A DNA stretch of 64,000 nucleotides from Amphiura filiformis (Eukaryota > Echinodermata > Ophiuroidea > Amphilepidida > Amphiuridae), in assembly GCF_039555335.1 (NCBI RefSeq), contig NC_092636.1:56227706-56291705 (forward strand). The letters are read 5' to 3'. The position numbers were made by a program, and so were the translations under genes. This document shows positions 3,506 through 40,300 of the stretch, piece after piece; positions within the stretch are counted from its first letter, which is position 1, and every line of letters starts with the position of its first letter. The notes under the pieces are model-generated. The model made no database searches and was not told the origin of the DNA. It was given only the letters and a program-made list of their open reading frames with translations.

Positions 3506-3666
3506 TGACAGACAGGGATATGGATTTATAGAATGTTTGAATATCTCTATTAGATAGCTTTTAATATTACATCTCATGTCAATGTTCCTTATTTTCATGA
3601 CTGCTTACATGAAGGTAGAACATGTTTTCCCCCCAACAACAGTAATTTCTTTCAATTTTTGACATA

Positions 3667-3918
3667 TGTGATGCAATCAAGCAAAATCAGTCGGAACTCT
3701 GGAATATTGATTTCGAGATATAGCCAAACACAGGAAATATTTCCTTTTGTTTCCTTTTGTTTTGGAAACTCTTTAATTGCTCTTATCTTTGGAACTGGCT
3801 GTTCAATTTCAATGGATGTTCTGCAAAATGCACCTTTGTATATGCTTTTTACTATCCTGTAAGAAACTGAAAATTTAATATTTCTGAGTTCCGACTGATT
3901 TTGCTTGATCGCATCACA
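3667..3918. mobile_element. MITE with ~33 bp inverted repeats (TGTGATGCRATCAAGC), copy 1
   Basis: Left end TGTGATGCAATCAAGCAAAA then TCAGTCGGAACTC; right end GAGTTCCGACTGA then TTTTGCTTGATCGCATCACA. The flanks are TA on both sides (3665-3666 and 3919-3920), fitting a Tc1/mariner-type target duplication. A second copy lies inverted at 17376-17610. Confidence 0.75.
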
Positions 3919-4648
3919 TACATGTTTTTTATAACATTATAGTTTATTTGTGCTATTCCAATACCAATATTATGGGCTTTCTTTTTTTATGTCATGCCAT
4001 TTTAAAATAATGATTTCTTTGACCAAAATTGAATTTTATGCAAAATTTCATCTGTAGAGACACAATCTCACATAGTTTTCCACACTTTATTAATACTTCC
4101 ATACAGCTGTAGTATGGTAGCAGAGAGCAAGGTTAGATACATTTTGCTAGTTAGTCTTTTCCTATCTCCTTTTTGAGATTTGCTTTTGGTGTGTACAAAA
4201 TGGACACCTGTTGGGTGTAAATTAGCCTAATTCACACACTCATTCTAACTGATGTAGCCAAATAAACAGAATAATTGATATGTAAGTGATAAATTGAGCA
4301 AGTAACTTAGGGTTTTTTTAATCAAAAGAAGTAATTACCAATTTGAGATTGTTACCTAAATCGGCATCATGAGAGACACAAGCTATAAAGTGGTGTGCAC
4401 CAAATCAACACAATAATTACCAGTCAAGCAAGCAAGTTTTAAATTTTTCTTAAAACTAGTAAATATTACTTGGGCAATTATTTATGCACTGTGTAATCAA
4501 GCATAATATTACTGAAACCCTCCCATGGGTAGGCAGGTATTTGCTTATACACACATGTTATCATATTGGTTTATATGGTATTCCTCTTTGTAACCCACAA
4601 AATGGCTTGTTGTTAAGTTAATTATATTCTTTATTAATTTACTATTTG

Positions 4649-10468: not shown

Positions 10469-13400
10469 TCAACTCTGCTTCGCATGATCAATCTTAGCAC
10501 CTCTTTGCAATGTCCTTTTATAGAACACCAGCCATGTGTACAAGACTCCTAGGGCACAATATACAGATGTCAACATCAGTGGGAAAAATGATAGTCTCTC
10601 CCCAAGACCTAGTAAATCATGGATGATATCAGTGTATATGTACAAGGGTAGTAGACCAAGGATGTAGAGAGATTCCAGTGGGTTGAGTAATGGGAGATGT
10701 GGTAGAATGGCATCTGGATGCGGTGATCTGGAGAGAAAATATAATACAACACAAAAAATCTCTTTAATTACAAAGTTCATGTGTCAATTAAGATTTAATT
10801 TAAATCTGGTCAACCAGACATACCTATTTTGACGGACGAACCGACGTTGCGACTGAAACCTTCAGTCTTCAGCTGGTATGTCTGGTAAATAGGTATGTCT
10901 GGTTGACCAGATTTAAATTAAATCTTAATTTCAACATACCCAGATGAACGAGAGTCTACACAGTTTGATTCATGTGTCAATGTTTATGAACATGCAAACA
11001 ACACTGTGAGTTTGGAACAGTTAGGGGTTTAGTAGCTTACTCTCTCTTGCGAGATATGTGTACATGTGCACAGGACCAATGTCCCCTCCTAAAGATGGTG
11101 TACTCTCATGATTCATTTACTCAATTCCAAATACACCATGGGGAGAGCGGAATTCTGATGTTTATTTACAGAAGCTGGCAATTAAATTCATTATTATGTT
11201 TTGATGAATCCAAGTGTGTGAAAATATTGGATCCAAACATAATAATGATACAATTGGATGCTCTACGCCCAATATTTATTGGTCTCGCTATGAGTTTTAA
11301 AATATGGGCTCAATCTATCCAATTTTATATCAGATTTTTCTTTATAATATATGCATTTTGTTTTTCCTACATTTATTGTATACTTACTGATAAAGGCCTT
11401 GTAGTGCACAGAATGAAAATATTGTGAAGAACAGCATCATACAAACTTTGATGGGGGTTTCTGTTGATACAAAGCATGATGGAAAAAAAAATCAAGATTC
11501 ACATCCTCATCTGTCTGATGTGTATCTTACATAAAGTCTGCACAAAAAGTAACTCAGCTGTTATAAATACGCCTATACATTCAGAACTAATAATTGTTTT
11601 CACAATATTTCAACATAGCGAGAAGGATGATTTATTTACACGCATTTTGATACCCCATTCGTCAAATGTCGTTTCAATATTAACAACACAGTAGTGCTTT
11701 TACAGAAAAATACCCGAATTTAAAAGTTGCAGTTTACAGCGATCAATGGTTATAATGCCAGCACTGTAAACATGAAAAGCCCGCCATTATCTTCGCGGTT
11801 ACTTCAAATCAATACAAATAACTGCAACTTTTAAATTGGGGTATTTTTCCCTCAAAACACTGCTGTATTGTCAATATTAAACAAAATTGGACAAATGGGG
11901 TATCAAAATGCGTGTAAATAAATCATCCTTCTTTTTATGTTGAAATATTGTGAAAACAATTATTAGTTCTGAATCTATAGGCATATTTATAACAGCTGAG
12001 TTACTTTTTGTGCAGACTTTAGATGGGTTTCCTTATCATTGGAAACATATTATAAACTCATTCCCCCAGAAATGTTGACATATTTGTATCAGAAACATTC
12101 AATTCCATAATGTATGTACAGTTGTACACATTCTTACAGATTCGGTCGTTGTTTGCCAAACAAATTCTCTCATTTATATTTACATTTCAGGCTGCGCCTA
12201 ATGAATGTGCACTGATGTCACTGCCACATCAGCTGGGATGTGAGACTTACTCTTTTCAGCTGATTTCCTCGTTTTTGTTGCCAAAATTTACATGTTTTCA
12301 TTTATTTTTAACCCATATTTGACATTTTTACCCTGATTTTACACTAGTTTTTCAGCTTTTTTGTAATATTTTTTGTTTTTGGTCTGTGGCCTCTCACACC
12401 CCAGATTGGGTGAAAATGGTATAGTTTTTGATCAAGCTTGATCTTACCTGGTTGAGTGTATAGCAATGGAAACAGTGAATAATGTCCTACTGTAGATAAT
12501 AATAGAAACACCTGGGCATCATTGTAACTCCATACTGATAATATACTGTGGGGAAAACAAAACAGAAAACAGGAAATGAAATCAAACAGTATTTCCACAC
12601 AATTCAAATTAAATTGGAACAAAAGTGATGAAACATTGACATAGAACTGATTTACTTATTACAATAAATGGATATGTCATTGGACTATTCCATTGGAAAT
12701 CCATACACCCCCTATGGAAGACATGGCATTAATATCCCACACAGTATAGCCCAGTTAGGGTTGATACACTGAAAGAATGAGCACACAGTACAGCTGTTAA
12801 CTTTTTTTTTCCAAATCTTCACTTCATGGAACTCGCATTGAATTTAGGGTTTTACATGCACGAGTATCAAGAAAATGGTAATTAAACCTATAGTTACAGA
12901 TTTCACATATTTAAGCATTTAGTATTGAACGCTGATACAATAAATAATCCTCCAAAACATAAATGATTGATGCCTCTGTGTCATGACACAAATATTGAAC
13001 AAATCCTCTTGTACCTACCTTAATGGTATAATAATGAGAAGTATGGCTTTTTCATGAACATGCCAGCCAAATATGAAAGAGCCAAAAGCACATAGAACTA
13101 AGCATCTGAGAAATCCTCTTGGGCCACTTGGATATCTCCATAGATGTATCACAGCTGGCTGCAAAAGATAAATATTGAAGTAATACAAAGATGTCAATGA
13201 TGGAAGTCGATCTCTGACAAGCAAGTTCATTATGTTGTGACAATTCATTTAGATTCTCGCTGAAAAATTTACAAGAATCTATTGATTCACTCACCAAAAT
13301 TGACAGCCCTGTCAGCACAAATGTTGCAATAGGAGGCACAGATGGTAATGTTGTGTGTTGGAATTCCTGTACCAAACCCCCTGTCATTGAAGCTTGGCTC

Positions 13401-16400
13401 TGGGTTGTGTTTACTGTGAGAAGGTCTGCTTTGACACCTGTTGTTAAGAAACAAAACAAATAGTAACACAGAAGCTATAAATAAAACTTGAAGATACAGG
13501 AATAATTAGAGAACAAAGTTATTGTTTTTAGCCACTATTGTGCATCTATTGTCTCATGGTTTACACCAATGATGTCGCCCGTGTTAAATGAGACAATAGA
13601 CGCACGACAGCAGTTAAAAAAATACCTTTATTCTCATTCTTAAAATAAACACTCAAATTATATCCTAAATTTCCAAAGGAATTACCTGGGGCTTACAATC
13701 GATCAGTCCCATTGTTGCTATGATTGGGGTTCAAATAGTGTGTACGAGTATCGCGTCGACGCACACACGCTGAACCGTGTTATATTGTGTCATATAACTC
13801 AGCTAATAACCAATAAGATTGCAGAAACTTTTTCTCAAGTGTTTAAGAATAAATGTTAATGCACATTTGAATGTTACCAATTGTGCGGGAAAAAGAGCTA
13901 ACTTAATCTTACTTTGACCAAATTAAATATCAACTGATTGTACAAACTCCTGGTAATTACAGGTTCTTGTTCTTTGACTGGGGCATGCACCTCATAACAT
14001 ACCAATTTGTTCTGCATAGTGTTACTGTCCAGTATCTACACACTCCATGATAATAACTGATTTGGTTATTTCTAATTGTTTAATCATTACTCACCTATAA
14101 TAGTAACTGCTTTATCAGCTACATTGTAAAAAGCCCAGAAGTTAGGTGCCCAATAGGCATGACATAATCCTCTCTTGAATGGAAACAACCTGGATATAAC
14201 CTGAGCTATCTCTCCCTGAAATGACAAGATTTATTCATCAGGATAAGTATTTATTCTTATGTATAAATATTAGGATTTTATTTTGAAAGAGGGAAGGGAG
14301 AGACATACAGACAGACAACAAAACATTACAGCAGAAATTGATACAGAAAGGAGAGGATTTAGACAGAGAAAGATAGAGATAGTTGGAGCAGTGGCGTAGC
14401 TGACAGGAGGCAGGCAGAACAACCCATGCAAATTGCCCATTTGGGCCACGCCACTCCATGCAGTTGTAAACTTGTTTCTTTGTAACTTTTTTGGCTGGTT
14501 AGTTTTGAGGGCATGCCCCTGCCACTGAACTTGGAACCCCAAGACAAAAATCCTACCTTTGTCACTGAGTTGGAGAGCACAGCACACTCTGACAAAGATA
14601 TTTTAACATGGAGAGGGGCATAGAGAGAAAAAGACAGAGAGTGTGAAACTAAGATAGATGATGACATTGTTATGTAACTTACCATAGCAATAAATGGTCC
14701 AAATGAGAGAGCAAACACAGATATGACAACTAAACCAAGACTGATGAGTCTGGTGATGGAAAAACTTGTCCACATCACACTGCCATCTATACACCAAAAT
14801 CATAAAAAAAAGGTTTAGATCAAATTGTGCAATTTAATGATGATGTATTCAGTTTAGAATATGCTGTACCAATAATCTTAGTACAAAGGTAACTACAGTC
14901 CAACTACAGTCCAACTATCTAGCCATGATTGCGACCACAAACATTAGCCTGATAAATAAAAAAAATCTGGATAAGTGAAATATGTGTATGTAATTCTGCA
15001 TTGAATGTCTGAAGTGATTAAATTTGAACAAAGAAAGATTACTCAGTATGATTGGGGTAATAACACTGAAAGATGGTATTTTAGTGCTGTATGCAATATC
15101 CATACGTGTGTCCTAAATGCTTCAGTGCATGAGATTAAGGTGCCAAGCATTAAAAACATTCCTCTTCATATGAAGATCACATGTGCGGGTAACAGAGAGA
15201 TCTGTATTTGAGAGGTTCGGATAAAAGAGGTTGGGCTGTACACACAATTTGCTGGTGTCCTAATTATTGACACCAGCCTGTCCTACTAAAGGCTAAAGAC
15301 CCATTCAGCGATTTACTGAACCAGAATAACCCTAAAATTCATCAAAGATTTTTGCATATTTGGAACAAGCATAGATGTGCTACTGAAATGGACAAATGGC
15401 AGATGAATACTTATACTTAAGTACAAGAACACTACAAGATTCCAAGGTACATGTACCTGACTGGTGCCCCCAAAGTACCTACATAGTACCAATGATGTTA
15501 CTGCACAGAACCCACCAGCAGTGGTACTGCACTGTACTACACTGGTACTCCTCTGGTACTGCACAGTACCGGCCAAATATCTTGACGACAGTGTACATGT
15601 GCAGGAATATTGTAGTGTATTTACTTCTGTTTTTTTCTTGTCGCACAACAATGCTGTAGAATTCGGCATGATATAAGGCTAGCAGTAGACATAAGCAAGC
15701 ACCAAGGATAGCATTTTACATTTTCAGAGCAGATTATTTACATTTTTATGCAACAGACATGATATATTGTGATCAAATCGGCATATAATTGAAGACAGAA
15801 TTAAAATGACTAGTTTGCATCTGCCATCAGGGCAAAGGCGTTGCGTGATTGGTTGCTGACTTGCAAAGTACAGCATTTTAGGTCTGGTTGCCAGGACGTC
15901 ACACGCAAACTAGTCTTTTTAATTCGGTCTTCAATTATATTTACATACATAATTGTTGATCGTTTGGTGATGCAGTTAGAGTTAGACAAAATATTTTGTA
16001 CAGAAAATCTCTGAATAAGCCTTCACAAAGGTACACCTATAAAATGAAAGAGAACTGTTTGAATTAACTTAATATCAATTATCAGGATTATGTAGGGTCC
16101 ATCTTACCTTTGTGTGACTGTGTAAAACAGTAAGACCTCAATAAATACATGAAATATGCAGGAGCAACATAGATGTAAATATGCTTGAAATTCAGGAGCA
16201 CTGCAAACCAAAATCCACCTTCCAAGTTCCTTCCCTAAATTCAAGAACACGAAAAAGAGAGCAGTATAATCTCATGCATCACAAGTAAAGAAATACCATT
16301 CTTAACCCCTTATGTGTGAGGTCATGTGCTTTCCAATCACATTGCTCCTTAGTTGATTCATACAAAACACACATGAGATCCTACAATGACCCATGTGTGC

Positions 16401-19400
16401 AATGTATATAGGAGGGATCATGTGACACAATGTCTTCCACATGCTGGCAACAGAACAGTTCACATTGCTCCAGCATGGCTTATACTTTATTAGCGTACTC
16501 AAGTAACAATAGGCCAGGACGGAGCTACGTCATGCCGATGAAAACAACCAAGTGCCAGTGAAAACAACTTGCGCAGATCAATCAAATTCACTGGACCGTG
16601 CGCCGACTGCGCATCACAAGCGTTACACTTTGCGCCGAGTACGTGCTTGGAATGTCTTGTTTTTGAGCTGCAAGTTCCCAGGGAAATTTGCTAAAAATAA
16701 CCCAAGTTCGCTCTCTCATATACAGTCCAACCTCCAGACTCCTCCAGATATCTCTGTTATCTGGCCATGGGATCTTCATATGAGAACACATTTTTAACGC
16801 TTTTACACCTTCACTTCATGCTCTGAAGCATTTACAGGACAAATCTATGTTAAATTAAGTCCACAAATGCCATCATCTTTTTAGTCTCTAGTATTGAGTA
16901 AATTAATCTTTTCTTGTCCTAACACTAATATGTGGGCCGTCATATCAAAAGGGACCTCTTTGCGGCACTGGGCATTTTGAGATACAGGCCGTTGAAGTTT
17001 ACACATACTCAAAATTATGTCCGATGTTGATTTTTTAATTTCTACATAAACATAAACTTTGAAGTGGATATTTTAAGAAAATCAATATGAAATACCCAGA
17101 ATATTAATAAATTTGCACAAATGTAAGAATAAATTACCCATGTCAATTCACTTCTTATGTAAACCTTTATTTTAAAACCGGTTTTTCTCAAAAACATTAT
17201 TTTCAAGTTTGGGCATGTTTCTATTTGATTTTTTAATAATTTTTCGAGAATGGTACATCCGATACCCATAAAAATGGTGTCATTTTAAAGCTAAGATAAT
17301 CAGCTTTCATCTTGTATGAATAACTCAATTTTTATTTTCCCCTCCAAGAGGTCCCTTTTGATGTGATGGCACACATGTGATGCGATCAAGCAAAATCAGT
17401 GGGAACTCGGAAATAAAAATTTGTCAGTTTCTTATAAGAAAGTAAAAAGCATTTACAAAGCTGCATTTTGCAGAAACCCTCATTTAAATTAAACAACCAG
17501 TTCCAAAGATTTGAGCAATTAAAGAGTTTCCAAAACAAGAGGAAACATTTGGCTATATTTCAAAATCAATATTTCAGAGTTCCGTCTGATTTTGCTTGAT
17601 CGCATCACATACAAGCACTTTAGTTTTTCAATGAAGAAGCACATGTAATTTACTTTTCCATATTTTTTTGGCTAGTGCTTGCTTATGTCATGGCTGGATA
17701 AAAGCAGTTGGACTGTATGTATGGTTTGACCACATACATGTATATGAGATTCAAGTGCGTATTACCTGAAATAGTCTTGCAATGGAAAGTAGCAATAACC
17801 CGAATAGAAATCCATTATACTGAAAGTGAATATCTAAATTAATCAATATTGTCAAGGATATATATGTATGTTGTGACAAATGGATGCAAACTGTTTATGA
17901 TTACAGTGAGCAGCAACATACACTGTTATCTGTTTACATTCTGTGATCCTGTATAATATTGGTATCCAGAATTCATCCATGAACAGTCTTACAATTCTCT
18001 CAGAAAAATGCTACCTTCAATACAGCCAGCAGGCCCAGCGTAAAGCAAGTCCACAACACACACACCCCCACACAATGTGTACTGTAACCACCAGCATACA
18101 AGGATGTGAACAACATGATGAGTTCTTATTTCCTAATTCGCAAGCTCAATCGGAAATAAATCATTTCCAATTGCGCCTACTTCTCTAGGATCTATCAACC
18201 TGCAAAACAAACACACAATGATACAGTTTATCTTACCAGGGAATATTGTTCGTCAGCCGCGAACTCACGGACGGACATCGAGACGGTCAGACCCGCCTAT
18301 AACGGGTGTAACTTCGAAGAAGCTAGAAGACCTACTGATAGGTCTGCGATTCATAAAGAATAGTATAACAAGACCTATATGCTAGGTCCAATTATCCTTC
18401 ACTATGCTCTGCTCAAGAAATCGTTTCTTCATTGAAGGCCTAATATAGGCATAGCCTTAAACCATATAACGCCTGTCAACATAGATAATATTTCTATGCA
18501 GAAAGCAGAAAACATTTACGTCACATGTGTTTATTATAACATAAACTTAAACATTGTTAAACAAATCAATCTATGCCATGCGAATAAGAATAACAATTCT
18601 TTAGCCCTAAGGAACCAAAGTCCTAACAATCAGAGGATTCAATTATCTGAATTCTGAGCATCAAACATCTCCCATCTACCCAAATTACTGGACGGACTGT
18701 GACACGGATCAGACACAACCCAAGCTATCACAATTATCATCAAGCATGTCCCATAGGGCCTAGGCCATACGCCATTGGACATGTTGCACACAATCCAAAA
18801 AGAGATAACTGAACACAAGTTTTAATAAGCCTACGGAAAATTAGACGTCCGTAGTCCTCGGTGCTGGCAACAATCAATGCCTTGATCACACCACGCAGTA
18901 CACAATTCATGCGTACCGCTGAATTGACCATTACGTAATCCTCGATCCGCAGGCCTCCAAAGGAAATGTATATTATTTCCTAATTCGCAAGCTCAATCGG
19001 AAATAAATCATTTCCAATTGCGCCTACTTCTCTAGGATCTATCAACCTGCAAAACAAACACACAATGATACAGTTTATCTTACCAGGGGAATATTGTTCG
19101 TCAGCGCGAACTACCCCTTATCAAGATATAAAGAACGGGCGGGCAAACGGTCCACACTGAATAATAGCTATGCTGAGCTCAAACTAATCTGGAATAATTT
19201 ATTCCGAGCTACAAAGCCCCTCGATGAATGTGATACTCCTATATATAGACATTATGCTACTAGTTCTTATTTCCCCGCTCGCACCAGCCCTCAAACATTG
19301 TCAAAACAAAAACAAATCACATTTCCCTTAGTCCTGATCCCAGGACCTCGGGCCCCCTCGGCCCTGAATCGCCAAATAAATTGCCACCTCAGTACTGAGA

Positions 19401-22400
19401 CTGTAAAAACCAATACTCTTTTGGCTAAAATAAAAGATGCCTATATATATATTAACTATATACATGAAAATCACCAGCGTTTAGCATGTTTAGTGTAAGC
19501 ACAGATCTGTGGTGTAAGCATCCAACATATTTATAACATACAACATTGCACTAATGTACAGAGCTTGGACCAATAAAGTCACTTTGACTCTCTGTAAAAA
19601 TATGTAAATATCTCGTCTAATCAAAGACCCTATGGTCTCATTTAATAAGAACCACTAACACGAAGAAACTCAAACGCTTCTGCCAAACTGACAATTTCAA
19701 CAGGTTCATGAACTCCGAACGCATACAGATACTTGTGTAACAGCAGAAGGTCTATAACTCAGTACAAGAAGCTATTGCAGCTTTATTACTGCCTTGAGTG
19801 TAGTCACAAAGGCAGATGCAACGTCTGATGAATTTTGTCGCATCTCACAAATTTACTTACTGAAATACTAGTTACTGGTGAAACATGAACACATATATGC
19901 CTAATATGAAGAGCAGAACCGCAACTAAATATGTGGATATTCAGATCCAAGTGCTTCTATGAATAAAATAAATTCTGACATTTTACTTTCACAAAACACT
20001 GCCCTTGTCACATACGATATCCTTAAGATATATATAGAAAAATACCTGTAGACCTATATAGTAAACGTAAATCTAGCTCAGTCGTGCATACTACATGTAC
20101 TATAACTATGCATAAGCAAACCAAAAATGGACATCCATGAATAATATAATGAGAATACTCTCCGAAATGCTCACGTCTGACTTCAGGAATAATCCAATTA
20201 CTGAACCTTGAAAAACAAACCAAAACACCGTACCTATTATAATGTATTCTTTAAGGAATACGTTAACATCTACTCAGCTAGGAATACCTCGTGAACATGG
20301 AGAAGGCCTATATAGAAATCTCAAAAAACCAACTTGGTGAAGCTGTACATATCATAAACGTCAAAAAACATGAACAGACTCGAATATCCATCTCCAATAC
20401 CTCTCTTAACCCATGCACGAAACTTACGAATTTCTACCTTCCATGATCTTCATGATCTTTGATAATAATAAGCAGAAACCCAGCATGTCTTCGAAGACAC
20501 ACATATTCACTGCTAATTATACAACATGCATGTATATATTCTAATCATGAAGGTAATGCTGTTGAAATGCGTATCCATATCCCAAATCCATGCCGCTGGT
20601 AATACAGTATAATCCATTTCATCCGTTTACCCCTACAAGTGATGCACTTCCAAAATCTTTCATGACGACACAATTATGGTATAGAACACATTGCTATAAA
20701 TGCTTAGCTTGCTCATCTCTATTATGATCATGATGAGGTGTACCCAAGACTACCCGCTACGAAGTAAAGTTCATTAACAGTCACCCAAATATCGAGATAT
20801 TAGCCCTAGTTTAACCGGCTGAGGGACAAATCAATTGATTTAGTCTATGGTCTATTAGAACCTACATTTACTATTGTCACATTCTTCCAAGTCCACGATC
20901 CATGTCATGTAAATACTCTTGCATTGCCACGTCCATGGAAAAGCTCCAACAGAGATCTTTCATATCCATGAGACTGTCCTTTATCAATGGAAAGCTCCCA
21001 GTATAAATCTGAAGGAATGCTTCCTTCTATACTCTATCATCCATTCTGCTCATTCCGAATGGCCTCATCCATTATGCACAGAAAAAACCAAACCAACCGG
21101 AACTTTAATGGGAATGATCAAATTCCATTAAACACATCCTCTGCTCCATACACCTCAATAGGAAATTCCATACACATCGATGATACTGCTCCTAAATAGG
21201 CCTAGACACATCCATATGGGAATGCTCATATAAAATAATGTTATGTTATACGCAACCTTTGGGACCTTGCTCCCATACACATCTACAGCCAGGATCCATG
21301 AGAATACTCCCATCCACGTCCGTGGGAAAAACTCCCATACAAACCCATGTGATGCTCCCATATATGCACCCATGGGATGCTCCCATCCACGAGATACTCG
21401 ATCCCATACACATTCATCCCAATGCTCCAATACACATTCATGGAAAAACTCCCGACGCATTATGTAAATGCTCCCATGCACGTTCATGGGAATGCTCCCA
21501 TACAATGCACTCGTTCATTGGAATGCTCTCCATAGACTCTCCCATGAGAATGCTCCTATGTATACCAAATTCATGGGAATGCTCCTATAGACATTCATGG
21601 AATGTTCCCAGACACATTCATGTGAATTCTCCCATACACTTAATATTCAAAAGCTCCCATATACATTTTATAGAAATGCTCACATACACTCTGCGTGATG
21701 TTCTAAATAGAGCTTATCACATGCCAAACCGAGACACCGCACATTCATGATAAACATAAATTGCTCCCAAACTCATTCAAGGGAATGCTCCCATACACAA
21801 TCATGTGAATGCTCCCATACACGTCCATGGAATGCTCCCATACACCTTCATGGGAATGCTCCCATATACACTCATGTACGTTCATGGGAAATCTCCCATA
21901 TATAATCATGCGTCTGCTACCAAGCATGCACATCCTCACATACATTCCGTGAGAAATCTCCAATACGTCTCTGGGAAGCTGCCTTTACCCACAGTAAGTA
22001 CTTAACTCATCCACGGGAATGCTCCCAAGATCAGAAAGCTCTAGCCTCTGCAAACCTCAGAAATTATGCGAATCTACATTTTCCTGTAGGAATACTCCCA
22101 TGGTAATACAAATCCATATATTCATATTGCCCACATAACAAACATATTCATGCCAAGCTCATTAATTTCTTATTTACTCGAAATTTTTTAAGACCACGTT
22201 CGTGGTAAGGCGACAATGCTCACGCCCATGGAAAAGCTCCTATATGTCTCAATGAATCCACGTGAGAGGAATGATCTCATAAAGGCCAATATTGAATTCC
22301 TCCTAAATAGCCTAACAACACTGGTAATCGTCTATCCTAAGCAAAAACCGAAAATGACGAAAATGTTGAAAAACATCCTGAAGCATATAGGCTTAATAAG

Positions 22401-25400
22401 TACCTACATTCTTATGCGACATTACCATAAGCATAATCAGAATGAATTTGCATTCTACTTCTACACAAAAGCTTCAAATTAACGTTCTTATATTAAAGTG
22501 CCCGCTTTGAGGCCCAAGGCCAACGAAAGGCCAAACTGAACACAGCCATGCAAGCTGACATGATAAAGCAGCGTTCCCTGACATGTGCAGCGTTCTGTAT
22601 AACGGCCCTTCTTGATCTCAATCTCGTAATCCATCGAGCTTCAAACTGGTATGAAACTAATCAATCGTAAGCCAGGTGTTATTCTGGATCAAATTTAATT
22701 TAGAAAATTTTGAATAAATTAATACATGCGAAAATCAATACTTGCGCGAGAAAAATATATCTGTGCGTTTCCAACGGCAAAATTAATCATGTAACGTACT
22801 AAAAGTATGACAAAAGCTTGCAAGAAATCGAGATGTCAATACCATTAAACCAATCTACAATCTCTATTATGACTACTACTCTATCGCAGTCGAGATTGAA
22901 ACCTATGTATGATCTGATAAAAGGGGTAACGTGAACAACCTCTCTGCCTGACAGCACAACTGCATTTATGTCATATTAAATATGATATAACAATTATTAG
23001 AAGATAACGTATAACAAGAATTTATTAAAAACGTACACAGGTATTATCTATGGTTTTATACTTTATCCATATTGATTTGGAGACCTCGTCAAGCGAGTCT
23101 CGTACAAATAGAACCCCGGGATAGAACCCCCAAAATCAAATGAAAGCAAAACCATATTAAGTACCCGCATCGATCACACGATATGATAATGATGCCTATT
23201 TATTTATCTGATCAATCAATATACAATCACAATGCGTTCACTAAGCAGTCTTGTACCCAGACTAACTGTAGCCCATCGTAAAGATAACGACAGAAAATCC
23301 GGCTGTGACGGAGACCACATAAAACCGTTCATGCCAGAAATTGGCGACCCAGGGATGGCGACAATTACTATACTGATAATAGACATGGTGTATAACCACC
23401 ATTTATGTTTGATACCATCCTAAATGTTGATACCAACTCCTATGCAATTCACATCCAATGTACTGGCCATGAGTCATTTCAGTAAGGCCTATCCAGGGAT
23501 CCATAGCCCCATAGGCCTCCAAGGCCTATGTATTTTGAGGAATAAATCACCTACCTCCTTACATCTGTTACTTCTTGTCAATCAAAAACATCTTACCAGG
23601 TCTCACAAGCAACCGCCATACATACCATAGATACTTTTCAAACCCCGATTCCAACTTGGCCTACAACAAGCTTGATAGTAATATTTTACTAGGCTCATAT
23701 CTGTTTTATCTGAACTAAATACGCCATCCTTATACAATTTGACCAAAAGGTGTACACAAAGTACAGCGCTGAAAATTAGACGTCCGTAGTCCTCGGTGCT
23801 GGCAACAATCAATGCCTTGATCACACCACGCAGTACACAATTCATGCGTACCGCTGAATTGACCATTACGTAATCCTCGATCCGCAGGCCTCCAAAGGAA
23901 ATGTATATTACTATCTAACTGCACACACACACACCCACTTGCGTAGGCAGGAAAACGAGGACCTCATTTTTCACTTGATTTAAAACATACTAACCGAGGA
24001 CTCACACATCCGTTCTTAATCGCCATACCGTGGATGGACCTCACTCACACACACCAGACCACTTACTATCCAACCGTGGCCCGTCCTATACCACCCATAG
24101 GTGGACCCGTTTTAAATGCATTTTTACGTTATTTGCGATGTCCTGGATATATTTAAAAGACCGAGGACGTCCACGGTCACCGGGTGTCCTCATTTGTCAT
24201 GTGTGTATCCTTGTGTGTGTCCTCGTTTGCCTGGCTACATAAACACACACACACACACCCACATGATTAACATTTTACTATCCAAGTGTGGACTAACATA
24301 CAGGCAATTGTGGTCATAAGCTATAATGCTTTCTATGGCATTTTACATCTACACATATGTATAAACACCACCTAGGAACCGTGGACATCCACAGTTCTTG
24401 TTTGTCTACTGTTGTAGTGTACACAGATTTCTCATGTTTGTGTCCGTGTTTAGAAACACTCGCTCACTCTTACAAAAATGTATATATCTCTCTTTCATGA
24501 TTTTACATTTTCAAGTTCTCAATAGAAAGGATACGGTCCACAAGCAGTAGTCCCATGTTTGTTAAGAGAAGTACAGCCAACACAAATGCAGGTTGTGATA
24601 TCAGGTCCTCATACTCCTGTTTATTATTGGATTTGGCAATGCAGGCACAGCATCTAAACAACAAATAACATAGAAAACATTGTATAATCCTTCACATAAT
24701 AACTTCATTTCTTTTGCAAAGTAAAATGGCAACATAATGAGAGTGTAAAATCCAGAAAAAGATACATGATATACATTTTCATGTTCCCCTCCAATAATAT
24801 GATCGGATATGCCAACTTTGAAAAATACAAAATCATATTTTCACACCTCAAAAACTATATTTTTACAGAAAAAACATATTTTTGCATGACTGTACACCTT
24901 TCTGGTCAAACTATCAGACAGTGACGCAGTGCTCAGGTTCTCATATTTAGCAGGCGCTAAAAACACATTCTGTGACTGAGAAAACTATACTTTGATCAGC
25001 TCGTAATCGGCGGGAATTTTAACATCGCGGATTAATATCAATATATTTTATTTAGAAAATTATCTTGTGACACCTCGCCAGAAAAATCACAAATTATTAA
25101 TTCAAGTCATATACTTGCCTACTTTCTTTAACATGCACATTGTAGATCTTCCAGATGAACAATAGCACTCTTAACGTGGATCTACTTTTTCGGCGTAGTG
25201 GTAAAAACCTAACAATTCCCGCCGATTACGAGCTGATCAAAGTATATACGCCCATATTTTGCCATATTTTCCATACAAAATATGGCAAAACCATACTAGT
25301 TGGCATGTCTGTTTGAAGTATTTCTACAACTTCAGAGCACAATCTTTTCACAACAGTGCAGTACAGTGGAGTGGTACATGGGTGCCAATAGTCAGCCCTG

Positions 25401-31368: not shown

Positions 31369-34300
31369 ATGGCAGCGCTCATGAAGGTGTTTAGCACACT
31401 TCGAAATCATTGGAAAAAGTCAACCTTTTTCGCAGTTGCGTCAAGCTATGGTATATATTACCTTCATGATAGATATAGGTAAGATTTAGAACGTATAATT
31501 TTTGCAATATATATGTGTTACAGGAGTGGTAAGAGTGTTTAAATAGAGTGCTGTGAAAAGACATGATAGGGTGCAAAATTCTGCAGCGTTGACAACGTAA
31601 TAGTGGTTATTTGTGTAAGCTTACCCATATCAACACAGCCATCTACAAAAAAAAAAAAAAAAAAAAAAAAAACTTATGTGCTTATATAGGCCTAATCCTT
31701 CTGTCAATATTATGGTGCCAAGCTACTTGTAAAAAAGTTGTATGTACATGATGTATATGTCATGTATGTGTGGTTGCGGTGTGCTGAAAGTGTATACTTA
31801 CTATACATGTACTAGACTCGCTTGCCAGTCCTATATACGCCGTACCTATGTATATTGAGGACTGGCTTACGCCATTTTGGATGTCAATGGGAAATACACA
31901 CTTAACGATTTGCGCCGGTTAGAAACCTGAAAAAAAATCTTTAAAATTTCATCAATGTATATAAAAGTGGTACCAACCGTATTGTGCTTGCTAATTTAAG
32001 ACTCGGTTGAAACAAAATTAAGGATCGAAAGCATTTTAGTGTCCAAAAAGGCAAAATTATCGTCAAAGTTCTGCGAAATCGGCACCCTTGCGAAGGGTTC
32101 AGAATTGAATCGAACGAAAATATCCGATCTTCGCGATCAGAAACACAAAATTACAACTTTAAACATACTATTGGCAAAAGACATTATTACCAAACAATAC
32201 AGAATAGAAAATTTGACATCATTTTCTCAAAATATTGAAAAAATTTGCTCACTAGACATCGAAAAAGTACGCAATCCAATTCCCGTTCAAACGCGTGGGA
32301 AACAGACTTGTAGTCGAGTCACTGAAAGTCGAGTCCGAGTCGAGTCGAAGTCATCGAGCCCTCGAGTCTCGAGTCGAGTCGAGTCATGAAGCCTTCGAGT
32401 CCGAGTCGAGTCGAGTCATTTGAAGTTGTCAGTCGAGTCGAGTCGAAAGTCGAGTCAGGCCATTCTGTCGAGTCGAGTCGAGTCGAGTCGGATATATTTT
32501 GTCGAGTCATTTCGAGTCACTTCACGTTTTATATGCTCATGATACCAGCTATCAATTTGCATGAAATTGTACTTTATAAATTAAATTAAAATCCCAGTGA
32601 GAGTACATAATATTAATTTATGAATCTATGTGCTCCATCCAGTGCATTGTGGAAATCAGTAATCAGTCAGACTTGTAGTATTGCCATTAGGACCCGCCAT
32701 GAGTATGGGTGCGGGTGCGTTTCCCGGACTACGAGTACTTGTCCGGGTACGGGACCCAGGCCATGGGTACGGATTTCAGGTCATGGGTAAGGGTGCAGGC
32801 ACGGATCCCTAGCCATGAGTATTCAGTACTGGGTCCATTCCAAAATAGGGTGCGAGTGCGTGTACGGAGCCATGGGAATGCGAATGCAGTATGGGTACGG
32901 AAATTGGGACTCGAGTGCACGGGTACTGGTCCAGTAGTGGTATGGAAATTGGGATTTCAAGTACTTGTATGGGTCCTATTATGGGTATAAACAAATAAAA
33001 TTAATCAAGTACAAAAAGAGATCAAATATTGGTGGTCATTATAGTGAATCTAGCCTAAAGGTGGCATATTGCAAGTGAAAAAACTAATGTCCAAATCTAT
33101 GTAAAATGTGAAATGATTATCTAAAAATGTAAAAATAGATCTCAAATTTGTTGACTTTACTTATTTGGCCATTTTCCAAATGAATTGGGGCTGTCAAATC
33201 TGTGACCTGTTATTATTCCTACATATCCACCAAATTATTTAGATTTATCTGTCACTTAGCAGAATCATATTTTTGTTATCATTTAAAATGAAATAATTGA
33301 TAAAAATTTCTACAATGTAGACTTCTTTCATGGAACTTTCCAATCCATTAAGCTCTTGAAAGAGAAACATGCACACTGGACCATACATCTCAGCTCCCAC
33401 TCAGTAGGATAATAGTTTACATGTAATACTGCACACAGCGTATAGGTATGCCAGGCAAACCTATCTGCTAGTCAGCCAAATTTGCCTAGAACACAATACA
33501 TATTTACATAGAAATTTAAAAGAACAGGTAGGTCAAGGAAACCTACATAAATACTAGTATGTTGTCTATACTTAATTCACTTGACCCAAATATATGATTT
33601 TTTTTATGGCGATGAGACACTCGCACATGGAATTTTAGGGGGATTTTGACCCACATTTTGATTGCAGTTCCACATAGAAAAGCTGCTATCATCATGAGAC
33701 TAAGATCTAGAAACACCACCGAAATCCCAGACGAACTAGTACCTAGACCAGTGACTTTGACTCGCGTAGTGAAGCCGACACTGCTTAGCAACGACTTGAA
33801 CAAGGACGCATACCCGGACGTAAGCAAGCAGATAATGATAATACAGAACATGTTGCATTTGACGCGGCGCGGGAGATAACGGCGCAGTAACCACGCAACC
33901 GAGAGCGTCAGAATGTACGCGATTATCTCCGCACCTAGTAACCCTGTCAATCCGTCAATATCACCTTGGATACGGGGCTTCACCTCCCGCTGTGGTAAGG
34001 GATGGGCAGTCATAGGTCTAGGTGGTATGTCTATGACCGAAATGCTGTTTTGTTAGCTGATTCTTTTAGATGAAAGTCAATCTTTGACAAGATGTAACTT
34101 TGCTACAGAAAGGGCTATGACAAAACGGTTTTCAGTTTTGACTTTCTTTACTCAAGGGCTTTAATTTGATATATAAAATGATGCAGTTTGATGGCAAATT
34201 TGAATTCACCTGGCATACCTACAGCCTTGTCCCTAGGCGCAATTAAGTAACTGTGAGTTTACATGTAGTGTGCTACATCCACACACACACACAAAATACC

Positions 34301-37300
34301 CCCACATGCCTGCTGTCGGATACAGGTACTAGGTGGTCTGATACATGTAGTTTTTACCTTCAGGAGTAACCTGATGGACATGGCTTTTGAAGAAAGTGTA
34401 TAAAGGTTGGTTGGTTGAGTCAACAGTGTTGGGTGGGGTTTGGTAGAGTGGTGTGTGGTGTGATGCAGTGAGTGACCTTCTCATCACATTTCTACAATTT
34501 TATCATCAAAATGCCATAAAATTATGCGGAAACTTTAAAATTGACCTTTTCAGCAAATTTGTATTGTAAATTTTTCAAATAAGAAATAAAATATAAAATT
34601 TTGCTCCATTTTTGCAAATAATGACCCATTTTTTCAAAATGTTGTACCAAATGACCCCTTCTTTCAAAATTTTATACCCAATTACCCCTTTTTCATTTTG
34701 ATATACCCAAACTAAGCAATGCCAATATTTAGATACCTTTCAGATTAAAGTTGAATGAACCCCCCCCACCACCACCACGGGCATGGACTCTCACCCGAGT
34801 CGGACTCGAGTCCCGACTCGGGTCTTATTTTTGTTGGACTCGGACTTGGCTCGGACTCGGCACCCCTGGACTTGGACTCGAGTCCGGACTCGGACACAAA
34901 AGGACTCGGACTTGGCTCGGACTCTGATACAAATGGACTCGGCTCGGCTCGGACTCGGACAAGCTGGACTCGGGTACAAGTCTGCTAATTTCAACATTAT
35001 ATTTAGCAATGATGTAGCTTTCGAGTCTTATTATGCACATCTGGATAATTATATCCATGTTTTATTGATACTGTATTTTAAAATTCATAAACATCCCAAA
35101 TTTCATTATGGTAAGAACCTCTCTATTCATTTGACTCAGATGCACAAGCCCAAGCCTGGGCACAAGAAGTACATGTCATGATGTGGCTGGTGGAAATGCT
35201 CACACCAGTCAGTCACATTGCAATGTAGTTCTTCATGTGTGCAACATGTAGAGGAGTGTATTTGGATGGGGAATAATCAAAATGATTAATAAAAGCTATA
35301 ATAATGATATTTTAACATGATAACTTGAAATTCACCACAAAAAAGAGAGTATCTCGAAATGTTTTCCCAGTTTGCTGGTTTTTTTCTGTATTGATCAGTC
35401 ATTGTGTGAATGAGACATGTAGCATACATGTAGGGGTGTGTGCACAGGCTGTTACAATGACATGTGTGTAGCATTCATGTACATTTTGTGTAGCCAGGCT
35501 CAGCAATGATGGACAATGGACTTTTCCACCATGCAAAGTTTGAAGCATGTAAAAAAGGTGGATCCTTTAGCCAGATCGACAGGCAATCATACATGTACAT
35601 TGTACACACATACATATAATTTATATTTTAAGTTAGGCCTATTATAAAGATGCTGAGAGATAGTAAGCCCACTTTGTAAAATATAAGAATCACAATACAT
35701 TGAGATGTGTGGAAGAAAACGAGCAGGTATTATTAGAAATATTAAGGTATAATTTATTTTTCGAGTCATTTAAAAAAGTCGATTCAGCCACAGTGACTCG
35801 AGTCACAAGCCTCGAGTCATCGAAGTCGAGTCATTAAATTTCGAGTCGAAGTCGAGTCATCGATTCATCAACCCTCGAGTCGAGTCGAAGTCGTCGAGTC
35901 ACCTTGCCTCGAGTCGAGTCATCGAGTCACCAAAACTCGAGTCGAGTCGAGTCGAGTCATTTCGAGTCGAGTCACTACAAGTCTGGTGGGAAACTGAAAG
36001 TGCGATAATCGTGACTAACATGTACATGTAGTACAGTGCCGTACTATTACGCTGACTTTCCTATTCGGCGAGGAGGACGATTTCGACCTCCTCGTTTGTT
36101 TACAAACAGAGAGGTAGACAAAGGGTCTGTCAAAACTGTTCCGCTTGTCCAAATACTCTTGCTCGAGAACTCTAGCCAAGAATTTGCTCACCGATAGCTT
36201 CACATTCTAGGCTAGAGACCTTTGCATTCAAAATCTAGTCGGATTCGCTGAAGCATGACACCGTGTAAAGCAATGGAAGGTCAGAAGTAAACACAGCCGA
36301 TCACGACAGGCGATTGCATCAAAAATGTTGCTAAAATTACACTTCAGCAAATTTTTAGACTGTCCAAAATACGCAAATCTTGCTCAAAAGATACAGTTGA
36401 CTCATCGAAATAACTTTCATTCAAATTTCAACATTAACAGAATAAATAACCTCCGGTGTAAAAAATTGCACCGCTGTCCGACCGAAAACCATAGTAAAGT
36501 ACTCTAGCATCGAATGCGTAACTATCGTGTGCAAATTCGAAGCTAGCTAGAGTTCTCGAGCAAAAATACTCAAGTATCAAAAGGATGGTCCAAAATAGAG
36601 TGATTCACGCAACATGAATAGGGATTAAAAAACTGTGAAGTAGGACCATGTGCTTCTTTTGTCCACTTTGCCATCAAGATTTCGAATAGAAACAGTTCAG
36701 ACCCAGAACAGGATCATGTCAGAAATTAATATTTTGTTCTGGGTCTGATTATTCGGACTAACTATAGTATAACTATTACTATACCATTCAGCAAATTACT
36801 TCAGCGGTGTCCGTCTGCCCTGTCTGATAATTGTGTAAAAAGAACAAGGTTACACATTGCTACCAGTGAATGAGGTGCCAATGTGATAATCATAATGATA
36901 TTTCAATTAGCCAATCAGAATCCCACTTATGCCATAAACTGCATCAAATTTACCGACCGCTGAAGTTCTTTTTGCTGAAAAAAACTATATTAATTACCGT
37001 AACATGTATTCTGAATTTTTTCATCAACATCCCTATGTATACCTGTATACCTGTAGAGTTGGGCACTGCAAAAGGAAGGCTTTTTAGCCTTATAACGCCC
37101 ATCCATATTCACATGTAACTTAATGCAATAGTACTGAATGCAATGCCAATGGAAGGAGGGATAATGTGATGTGAGAGCAGGATTTATCTGGATGTCCACA
37201 CAAATTGTCCTGTGCTGAAAACCCGGAAAAGCTAAACATGTCAATATGTTTGGTTAGAAACTCATCAATACCATTCTTGAAGATGTTGGTGGATTGGGCA

Positions 37301-40300
37301 TGAACAACAGCTGAGTAGTTTATTCCACACATTACACACTCTCTGTGAGAAGCAGTTTTGCCGTAACCTCGAAGAACATATCTCTGCTTATTAAACTTCA
37401 GATCATGACCTATCAGACCTTCTACATTTCTCGTCATATCAAACATCTTCGAAACTTCAATATCTTGGAGTTCATGCAGAATCTTGTATACTTGGATGAG
37501 GTCACCCCGAAGTCTTCTATAAGCCAGTGTTGGTAGATCTAACAGCATTAATCTTGTGACATATGGCAGATCTCGTAGTGATGGAACAATTTTTGTTGCT
37601 CTGCGTTGTACTTTCTCAAGTTTATCAATATCTCTCTTCAAGTAGGGGCTCCATACACTATTCGCATACTCCAAATGCGGTCGAACCATAGACTTGTATA
37701 GTGTCTTAAATACATGCTCATCCATGTGGTCAAAAGTTCTCTTAATCACACCAACAACTCTGGTTGCCTTATTTGCTATTGTTGCTATGTGCTTGCCTCC
37801 TTCACAGCCGGTTTCTGTTGACATGTTTGCAATTGAGCCATATGCAGTTTGGGCCCTAGTCCTACATGTAGATTAGTTATACTAATAGCACTGATGTCGG
37901 ACTGACATAATTCAGAATACATGTTCATACATTAACTTGCCAAAATATTGAAGAATATATAGTAAAAATATTTCATTAGACCTATTTTCATTCATTAATT
38001 TTATTTATTATTCCCATGTTTTGTCTACAGAGCTAATTTATTAAGGACAGAATTCTGTAAAGAAGCTCAGGTATGTTAACATGTGTAGTAGTCTAATCTA
38101 ATTAATATTGATCATGCTTATGTGTATGTATGATGTAAAACATACATACGTACTAGTGCCGTACTATTACGCTGACTTTTGTATTTTGTTTACAAACAGA
38201 GAGGTAGACAAAGGGGCCTGTCAAAACTGTTCCACTTGTCCAAATACTCAAGTATCAAAAGGATGGTCCACAATAGAGACTAAATCAGTGATTCACGCAA
38301 CATGAATAGGGGATTAAAAAACTGTGAAGTAGGACCATGTGCTTCTATTGTCCAATTTGCCATCAAGATTTCGAATAAAAACAGTTCAGACCCAGGCCAG
38401 AACACGATAACGTCAGAAATTAATAATTTATTCTGGGTCTGATTATTCGGACTACATACGTACATATACATGTATGTAATCTTGTATTACCGGTACTTAT
38501 TTAACTACCGTACTGACGCGAGTATAGTCCCACCTTCGAGTAAAGTCCCACCCCCAAATTGTCGAAAAATTTCAGAAATTTAATGGACCTAGACCTAAAT
38601 GCTAGGATCATTCATGGTTGATTAAAAAAAAATATATATATATATTGCAGAATTTGTATGCATTTTGAAATCATTAATAGAGTATGACATGAGTACAAAT
38701 TTATTCAAAACACATAGGCCTACAATATATATATATTTTTTTAATCAACCATGAATGATCCTAGCATTTTGGTCTAGGTCCAGGGACACTCCAAGCCGAA
38801 AAAATAAATAAAAATTTTTTTTTTAATTCGAGTATAGTCCCACCCCCAATTTTGAAAAATGTTCACCCAAAAACGGGTGGGACTATACTATCAGTACTGG
38901 TACTATGAAGGGCTGAACCAGTTACCTAATAAAAATTCCTTTAAAAGGAATAGGGCGGGCAAATGAAAAATTGTCAAGAGAAATGAAAGAATGAGTAATC
39001 CTTCACAATTAAAAACAGGGAAAATATGACACAACATCGATTTCCAATGGGGGAATAACACAAAACATATAAACAAAGTTAAAAGACGGACAAAAGAGTT
39101 TTTAACTTTATACGTTTATGTTATTCCCCCATTGGAGGTTGTGTCATATTTTCCCTGATTTTTAATCTTATCAATTGCTTATATCCTTTGGTTCCCTGCT
39201 GCTGGTCAGTTGGAACAGATTTTCCCTGTTTTCATATCAACCCTTCACATCATAACAGAAGACGTTTTATGTTAACATTTTATATAAGACATTGTTATAA
39301 AATTTTGAATAGTTAAAACATTTTCGTAATCATACGGGGGTGGGGGGGGCACTCAACTTTGGAAGTGACGGTATGTGCCTGTCAATAGGCCCCCTCTTTT
39401 GAAGTCGACTATACCCGATGACCCCCTTTTTTTAAAAGCCATACCCGATGACCCCCCTTTTTTGTCACAAGATTTGAAAAGTAAATAGCCTATGTACACA
39501 CTGAACACAATGCACATACAAGCTGTAAAGTACATACCGAAGCTGTCAGTACTATAAAATGATATATATGACCTTCACGATGCTATTAATTTAGCCCAAA
39601 GATAGGAAAACTAGCAAAACTGGAGAACTGGTACTGTTCAAATAAAAACATCTGCAAATCTTGCTGCAATTTCCAAATAGTATTTCTATTACTTAAATAA
39701 TTATTTTTGTTATTTCTTTTAATACAAACACATTACTGCCTTTGATGACTTTATCGTATTACTTAATATCAAAATCAAGTAATAATTACAAAACTCGCCG
39801 TAAACTATCACCTCTGTAGGTTTTTGGGTATGTAACCAGCACGAATATTTTTGTGCAACACTGCATGTGAAAAAGTAGGTCAACGCTGTACCCGCCCAAA
39901 AATGAAAGTTTGAATTTTTATTGAAAAAGGCTTCCACCCAAATTTACTTTGTTTAAAAGCAGTTTGGGTGCTTAAAATGTTTTCATTCTTTGGGCAGTGC
40001 TCGATCCTGCTAGTTTTCAGTCCAGTTTGAGATTTTGGGTCAAAATAATAACATTGTATATCGTTAGAGGAAACCATCACTAACCAGTTCTTAGTAATGA
40101 AGTCTAAAGAATGTGCTTCCAAATCACAGAAATACCATAAGGCTAAAAAAATAATGCTATGTTTCAAAGCCCATGGCAGTTTCAAAAACAAATGCGGAAT
40201 GAGGTTTTTTTTAAAGATTTTTATTTTTTAACAATTTTTTTAAAACAAAATTTTGAATTAAGTTGTCATTTTCGAGAAACAAGTACACAGCATGAAATTA

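Follow-up and report, generated by a model that had tools for sequence, protein, structure and literature searches.

Retrotransposons of the PAT, Ngaro, and VIPER types carry direct repeats in the order A1/B1A2/B2, according to the parts of three papers that treat their structure (PMC4157794, PMC8547959, PMC6681497), and a length of ∼6 kb is stated for Ngaro (PMC8547959). The inner repeats are placed either downstream of the tyrosine recombinase (YR) or between the methyltransferase and the YR in the relevant portion of one of these texts (PMC4157794). In the description of DIRS1-like elements, the internal repeats overlap on a 3-bp circular junction and insertion occurs at an identical 3-bp target without duplication, with an NTT end triplet in 23 of 28 elements (PMC3266345). 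SIRE, from Trypanosoma cruzi, is described as a truncated, non-autonomous relative of VIPER that spans A2-B2 (PMC6681497).

The DNA analyzed here, referred to as the window, is a 64-kb stretch of Amphiura filiformis NC_092636.1, with coordinates counted from its start. It contains a 5785 bp insertion that we interpret, with a probability of roughly 0.6, as a single recent non-autonomous YR retrotransposon with split direct repeats (the PAT/Ngaro/VIPER/TOC architecture), mobilized in trans.

Repeat architecture and the B1A2 junction

The features of the insertion are listed with their positions, their strand where one applies, and the basis of the assignment.

18126..23910: complete insertion of 5785 bp with TTA at both borders (repeat limits and composition)
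18126..18265, plus: A1, the 140-bp R1 copy at the left end (repeat search)
18266..18835: short interior, 570 bp, without detected protein domain (six-frame Pfam and composition)
18836..18975, plus: B1, the inner 140-bp R2 copy (repeat search)
18961..18981: perfect 7-base inverted arms AGGAAAT/ATTTCCT with a 7-base spacer, proposed recombinase binding site
18962..19015: four GGAAAT/ATTTCC motifs of alternating orientation within 54 bp
18973..18975, plus: TTA common to B1 and A2, proposed 3-base circular junction or crossover core
18973..19112, plus: A2, the inner 140-bp R1 copy (repeat search)
19113..23770: long interior, 4658 bp, without detected protein domain (Pfam, PDB, and composition)
21332..21876: minisatellite with a ∼24 bp unit and diverged copies
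23771..23910, plus: B2, the 140-bp R2 copy at the right end (repeat search)

The R1 and R2 copies are all direct, and the order along the insertion is A1 - 570 bp - B1A2 - 4658 bp - B2. The R2 copies are the same at 140/140 bp, with no differences, and the R1 copies have no substitutions and are distinguished by two 1-base indels (GGG/GGGG and CC/C). The overlap between B1 and A2 is exactly TTA, since the adjoining base differs between copies (C/A before A1/A2, T/C after B1/B2), and the same triplet occupies both outer ends and the junction (18126-18128, 23908-23910, and 18973-18975). Target duplication longer than TTA is absent, the bases beyond this core being different. R1 and R2 have no similarity to each other on either strand, and no further copies of either were found in the 64-kb window (E up to 0.01 in both searches). 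Local alignment of the two interiors revealed no mutual similarity, the scores of 25 (plus) and 22 (minus) being matched by 78/100 and 90/100 dinucleotide shuffles, respectively. These results confirm what a sequence-only reading of this DNA had described: two ∼140 bp direct repeats fused through a 3-base TTA, identical R2 copies, R1 copies with two 1-base indels, and interiors of 570 bp and 4.66 kb that share nothing; they also uphold its argument that a simple tandem duplication does not explain the arrangement, which is ruled out by the unrelated interiors in the shuffled-alignment test.

Other familiar architectures were also rejected. The left end is R1 and the right end is R2, without similarity, rather than one repeat at both termini as in an LTR retrotransposon. 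Ends of the DIRS1 type were not found: two pairs of inverted repeats of at least 30 nt occur in 17000-25000, neither of them at the insertion ends, and R1 and R2 are unmatched on both strands (E up to 0.01). When the joined flanks were searched against the 64-kb window, no second copy of the insertion site was found; a 29-base match across the join was seen at 42273-42301 (86%, E 0.001).

TTA at all three boundaries could be read as 3-bp duplications made by two adjoining cut-and-paste (DDE) elements, the second inserted beside the first, with ATTTCCT near the left end and AGGAAAT near the right end as possible subterminal inverted repeats. This is improbable: these 7-base motifs are unequally distant from the two ends, R1 and R2 are unmatched on either strand (E up to 0.01), and no inverted repeat of at least 30 nt joins the ends. 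Six-frame Pfam searches gave no transposase domain, and the strand-asymmetric composition described below is not expected of such a pair.

The B1A2 junction has inverted arms that resemble a recombinase site and lend modest further support to the YR reading. YR sites typically have arms of 11-13 bp and spacers of 6-8 bp, as given in the part of the Crypton literature that covers them (PMC3212892); the junction arms, at 7 perfect bases, are shorter than this, whereas the 7-base spacer is within the range. Arms of equal quality overlap 67 of the 8255 outside points tested, and the four-motif GGAAAT/ATTTCC cluster within 60 bp is the only one in 64 kb. Folding of 18940-19030 gave a z of -3.03, with 2/200 shuffles equally good.

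The main competitor of the single-element reading is a pair of head-to-tail elements from one family with common 140 bp ends, a short one at 18126-18975 and a long one at 18973-23910, of which one integrated as a YR circle at the end of the other in a Crypton-like manner, leaving a single TTA between them. Such a tandem insertion predicts every local feature, including the single common TTA and the inverted arms, and non-autonomous Cryptons are reported from animals in the passages of the same source that concern them (PMC3212892). However, those passages report that no terminal repeats were found in animal Cryptons and that the non-autonomous CryptonI retains 438 bp and 260 bp of the parental ends (PMC3212892), unlike the interiors here, which lack residual similarity. 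The joint size and order also fit a known class without needing two events, and we consider two elements unlikely.

Composition and coding content

The A+C excess of the 5.8 kb insertion was 0.159, compared with a maximum of 0.045 among 933 outside windows. In comparisons with windows matched to each interior in length, no outside window was as high as the short interior (0.179; 0/1142, with 8/1142 equally far in the opposite direction), and none was as far in either direction as the long interior (0.159; 0/978 each way). The largest A+C-rich segment of the 64-kb window lies at 17966-24097 on the plus strand, with limits no more than 190 bases away from those of the repeats. The two unrelated interiors have the same strand asymmetry, and the insertion forms one compositional unit. 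An assembly artefact, to which the equal repeat lengths (140 bp) and the single locus might point, is very improbable: the R1 copies are not a copied overlap, because two indels separate them, and the composition shifts near the repeat limits. CpG o/e was 0.69-0.75 in the interiors vs. 0.42-0.50 in the remaining window, although one outside stretch of equal length reached 0.89, so a high value is not unique to the insertion. The nearly identical repeats and the raised interior CpG o/e suggest a young insertion, in agreement with the sequence-only reading.

Six-frame Pfam searches of open pieces of at least 25 aa recovered no families in the insertion at E up to 1, and RT, RNase H, methyltransferase, YR, gag, and transposase were all unrecognizable by this approach, including in the open frames at 19007-19495 and 21196-21747. 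A 74-residue kinase-exon stretch in the same window served as a positive control (E 9.9e-20), but a likely LINE frame, spotted by eye, had no Pfam match; sensitivity to retroelement remnants was thus incomplete, and diverged RT or YR families outside Pfam could escape detection. The insertion is not an autonomous member of the PAT/Ngaro/VIPER group, because no Pfam family was found in six frames, and the earlier claim that it holds no RT, RNase H, or recombinase frame agrees with this result. The best PDB matches of 19007-19495 (nicotinamide riboside kinase 1, E 0.1) and of 22192-22479 (E 0.68) were taken as chance, and no relatives of the latter frame were confirmed among 16 pattern matches in IMG/VR.

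The interior minisatellite that had been noted earlier is real, with its ∼24 bp unit at 21332-21876. At 184 aa, the longest open frame (21196-21750, plus strand) passes through it and is longer than those in all 200 shuffles. The minisatellite was unsupported as a structured RNA (z -0.37, 70/200 shuffles equally good), and scanning the window for tRNAs and Rfam families gave no matches. Three-base periodicity exceeded the window's 95th percentile (2.30) in 2/12 segments (2.77 at 18001 and 3.27 at 22009), the second at the level of the highest value in the whole-window grid, and a purely non-coding interior leaves this periodicity unexplained. The periodic segments, together with an autonomous-like size, would suit an autonomous YR retrotransposon that has decayed until its genes are past recognition; this is nevertheless quite improbable, given that each frame contains 101 to 126 stops over 18001-24000 and that the near-identical repeats make the copy look too young for such gene decay.

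Proposed mobilization and its implications

The insertion fits a split-direct-repeat YR retroelement because of its repeat order, 3-base overlap, lack of a longer duplication, ∼6 kb size, and single-unit composition; on these counts the classification made in the sequence-only reading is partly supported, with both reverse transcription and recombinase action as inferred steps. The 3-bp junction rule is taken from DIRS1-like elements, not from PAT/Ngaro. The enzymes of an autonomous relative would turn the element RNA into DNA, with the inner B1A2 as the template by which both ends would be restored and then joined into a circle with the junction B2-TTA-A1. A YR bound to the inverted arms could then recombine a chromosomal TTA with that of the circle, so that each end would carry a single TTA and the target would not be duplicated further.

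If the inner repeats lie close to the 3' end, as in the known PAT/Ngaro geometry, the RNA would correspond to the minus strand of the window. Several observations count against the preferred reading: the A+C-rich strand is the plus strand, yet the known geometry puts the RNA on the minus strand; the ends carry the triplet TTA (TAA when read on the opposite strand) instead of NTT; and the short arms, the non-unique CpG o/e, and the periodicity in 2/12 segments also count against it. An alternative is a large, purely non-coding split-repeat YR family in which the A+C-rich plus strand serves as the RNA, with B1A2 near the 5' end and a long A+C-rich interior kept for copying in trans rather than for coding. 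That version is unlikely; its B1A2 position near the 5' end would differ from the placements stated in the available text of PMC4157794.

To our knowledge, anatomy is the main support for the YR-retrotransposon circle model. A copy that lacks genes but keeps all four repeats, together with a 3-base core and arms like those of a recombinase site, presents cis sequences that may suffice for mobility, and such a copy offers a natural minimal substrate on which the circle model could be tested. The locus also suggests that annotation by RT or YR domains would overlook such elements, which repeat order and strand asymmetry could detect.

Comparison with known elements

Exact searches with one R1 and one R2 word (20 to 23 bases) gave no matches in IMG/VR or GTDB genomes, where diverged copies would escape, and a blastn search of phages with the whole element gave none. 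A 65-base stretch was similar to 4/72,556 plasmid records (78.8% identity, E 3e-3), which was taken as chance. No gene-less split-repeat element of an animal appeared among the matches listed from the openly licensed literature.

Cryptons, which are DNA transposons with a YR gene as their enzyme, have, as far as the consulted text describes them, a circle and short-core recombination in common with the proposed mechanism and include non-autonomous forms; they lack long direct repeats and an RT step, whereas the insertion has long direct repeats and no YR domain. DIRS1-like elements share with the insertion a 3-bp junction, a trinucleotide at both ends, and no target duplication, but their terminal repeats are inverted and accompanied by internal complementary regions where the insertion has direct repeats, and NTT is found in 23 of 28 of them where it has TTA. 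TOC1 of Chlamydomonas reinhardtii is reportedly ∼5.7 kb, nearly the size of the insertion, gene-less, and built with split long repeats in an unusual arrangement, and is said to contain internal tandem repeats and no long reading frame; its repeat lengths and host differ from those here. With TOC1 and SIRE as precedents, non-autonomous split-repeat elements are not a new class; the sequence-only reading had held that such a class would be notable and little described. SIRE, in the portion of the source that describes it, is like the insertion non-autonomous and composed of a YR retrotransposon's split repeats, but it is short (about 185 + 30 + 220 bp) and comprises A2-B2 only, compared with four repeats and a 4.7 kb interior here (PMC6681497). 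Autonomous PAT-like and Ngaro members encode RT-RNase H and YR, none of which was detected in the insertion; the likeness lies in the arrangement, A1/B1A2/B2 with every repeat direct, and, for Ngaro, in a size of ∼6 kb.

Repeats and limits of the insertion

A repeat search and an inverted-arm scan delimited the following features, where R1 and R2 denote the two sequences that are each present twice in the insertion (18126-23910) and B1A2 denotes their fused inner copies:

18126-18265, direct orientation: R1, left copy (A1), 140 bp, repeat search
18836-18975, direct orientation: R2, inner copy (B1), 140 bp, repeat search
18961-18981: 7-base perfect inverted arms AGGAAAT / ATTTCCT with a 7-base spacer, in B1A2, inverted-arm scan
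18973-19112, direct orientation: R1, inner copy (A2), 140 bp, repeat search
23771-23910, direct orientation: R2, right copy (B2), 140 bp, repeat search

The two repeats are unrelated in sequence and each occurs twice in the same orientation, as a sequence-only reading had claimed for repeats of ~140 bp; equally, the R2 copies show no difference, and the R1 copies carry no substitutions and differ by one G (GGG/GGGG run) and one C (CC/C run), the two 1-base indels noted in that reading. The fusion of the inner copies on three bases was also confirmed: TTA at 18973-18975 recurs as the first and last three bases of the insertion, and because the sequence beyond TTA diverges immediately on both sides, the overlap is exactly TTA and the insertion is bounded by it. 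All four copies are 140 bp long, which places A and B symmetrically around the TTA core. No further copy of R1 or R2 was found elsewhere in the 64 kb window, so the occurrence as independent short repeats that had been named as contrary evidence was not seen there. A 29-base match (86%, E 0.001) at 42273-42301 spans the join of the insertion's joined flanks and may be due to chance.

Other repeats in the window include a hairpin-like repeat at 17375-17611 (arms 17375-17422 and 17563-17610, 88% complementary) with an inverted, 82% identical copy at 3665-3919, perhaps a MITE-like family; a tandem array at 55394-56212, in which a 127 bp unit is repeated 6.5 times with 91% matches; and TCGAG/GGACTC-type short tandem repeats in three separate clusters (32327-32490, 34835-34973, and 35812-35983).

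Interiors and strand composition

Local alignment of the 570 bp interior with the 4658 bp interior, using limits within three bases of the final ones, revealed no similarity (scores of 25 on the plus and 22 on the minus strand, reached by 78/100 and 90/100 shuffles, respectively); this dissimilarity rules out a simple tandem duplication, upholding its earlier rejection. Composition is strongly asymmetric on the plus strand of the element (A 34.0%, C 24.0%, G 15.2%, T 26.8%) and nearly symmetric in the window outside it. A+C exceeds G+T by 0.159 in the whole element, compared with -0.051 to 0.045 in 933 equal-length outside windows; by 0.179 in the short interior, as high in 0/1142 outside windows and as far in the opposite direction in eight; by 0.159 in the long interior (0/978 as high); and by 0.157 (0/1079) and 0.143 (0/1098) in the parts flanking its minisatellite. 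At 140 bp and 277 bp, the single repeats and B1A2 lack the length for this test to be informative, with 120/1159 and 61/1153 outside windows as high. The top-scoring A+C-rich segment of the window, 17966-24097 (score 476), starts and stops no more than 190 bases from the repeat limits, and after masking of the element and 400 bases on each side the next scores were 56 (A+C) and 86 (G+T). We read this asymmetry as the mark of a single element with a strand-asymmetric history, of a kind common among retroelements. It could also be common to two elements of one family, and a pair of neighbouring elements with shared ends would give the same sequence at this locus.

Coding content

The claim of no visible enzyme genes was borne out, as none of the open pieces of at least 25 aa in six frames of the element matched a Pfam family at E up to 1; for sensitivity, a 74-residue stretch of a kinase exon outside the element scored E 9.9e-20. 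At 184 aa, the open frame at 21196-21750 (plus strand) is the longest; it crosses the minisatellite, which has a 24-base period able to hold a frame open, and 0/200 two-base-block shuffles reached its length. Three-base periodicity exceeded the window's 95th percentile in two of 12 segments, one at 18001, starting 125 bases outside the element, and one at 22009, equal to the top value of the whole-window grid; a 96 aa frame in the latter had no convincing relatives in PDB or IMG/VR. The element could therefore still encode a short protein of no known family.

Elsewhere in the window, the exon at 42530-42880 (plus) encodes a diacylglycerol-kinase catalytic domain (PF00781, E 9.9e-20), with IGTSNTLAKMLYT present twice in its frame. 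A 250 aa open frame at 37120-37872 (minus), without Pfam or PDB match, resembles, judged by eye, the C-terminal region of a LINE-type reverse transcriptase, and 13052-13474 (minus) weakly matches the ALG6/ALG8 glycosyltransferase family (E 5.5e-05, under the curated cut-off).

Inner junction and known relatives

In B1A2, TTA straddles the right edge of the spacer between the inverted arms, a candidate recombinase-site-like feature that is only suggestive, since equally good arms overlap 67/8255 points tested outside the element; the usual tyrosine recombinase (YR) site is described as two inverted 11-13 bp arms with a 6-8 bp spacer (PMC3212892). Four GGAAAT/ATTTCC motifs lie within 54 bp at the junction, the window's only cluster of four within 60 bp, and the 91 nt around it found an equally good fold in 2/200 shuffles.

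The sequence-only reading of a YR retroelement stands as to repeat order and triplet core; reverse transcription, circle formation, and recombination of the element we infer. The order A1, B1, A2, B2 is also that of PAT, Ngaro, and VIPER, YR retrotransposons with split direct repeats (PMC4157794, PMC8547959, PMC6681497). DIRS1-like elements are described as joining their internal repeats on a 3-bp circular junction, the triplet of which recombines at integration with an identical target triplet without duplication (PMC3266345); the present element likewise has a triplet core, although it is TTA here and NTT in most DIRS1-like elements. Because no enzyme of its own was found and its repeats are nearly identical, the element was most likely mobilised recently by the enzymes of an autonomous relative. 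Its sense strand would be minus by the published geometry, in which the inner repeats lie toward the 3′ end, and perhaps plus by the A+C-rich strand. Exact-word scans and blastn found no copies in viral and prokaryotic collections, as expected of a eukaryotic element.

The proposal of a notable, little-described class was not borne out, there being precedents in TOC1, SIRE, and reduced Ngaro copies. TOC1, ~5.7 kb and without long frames, is a non-autonomous or reduced YR-retrotransposon relative. SIRE is reported as another (PMC6681497), and in Cafeteria, Ngaro copies that lack ORF1 are described alongside solo AB repeats (PMC8547959). In what gene and repeat content suggest is an animal genome, the element would add one more to these known kinds of non-autonomous or reduced YR-retrotransposon relatives.
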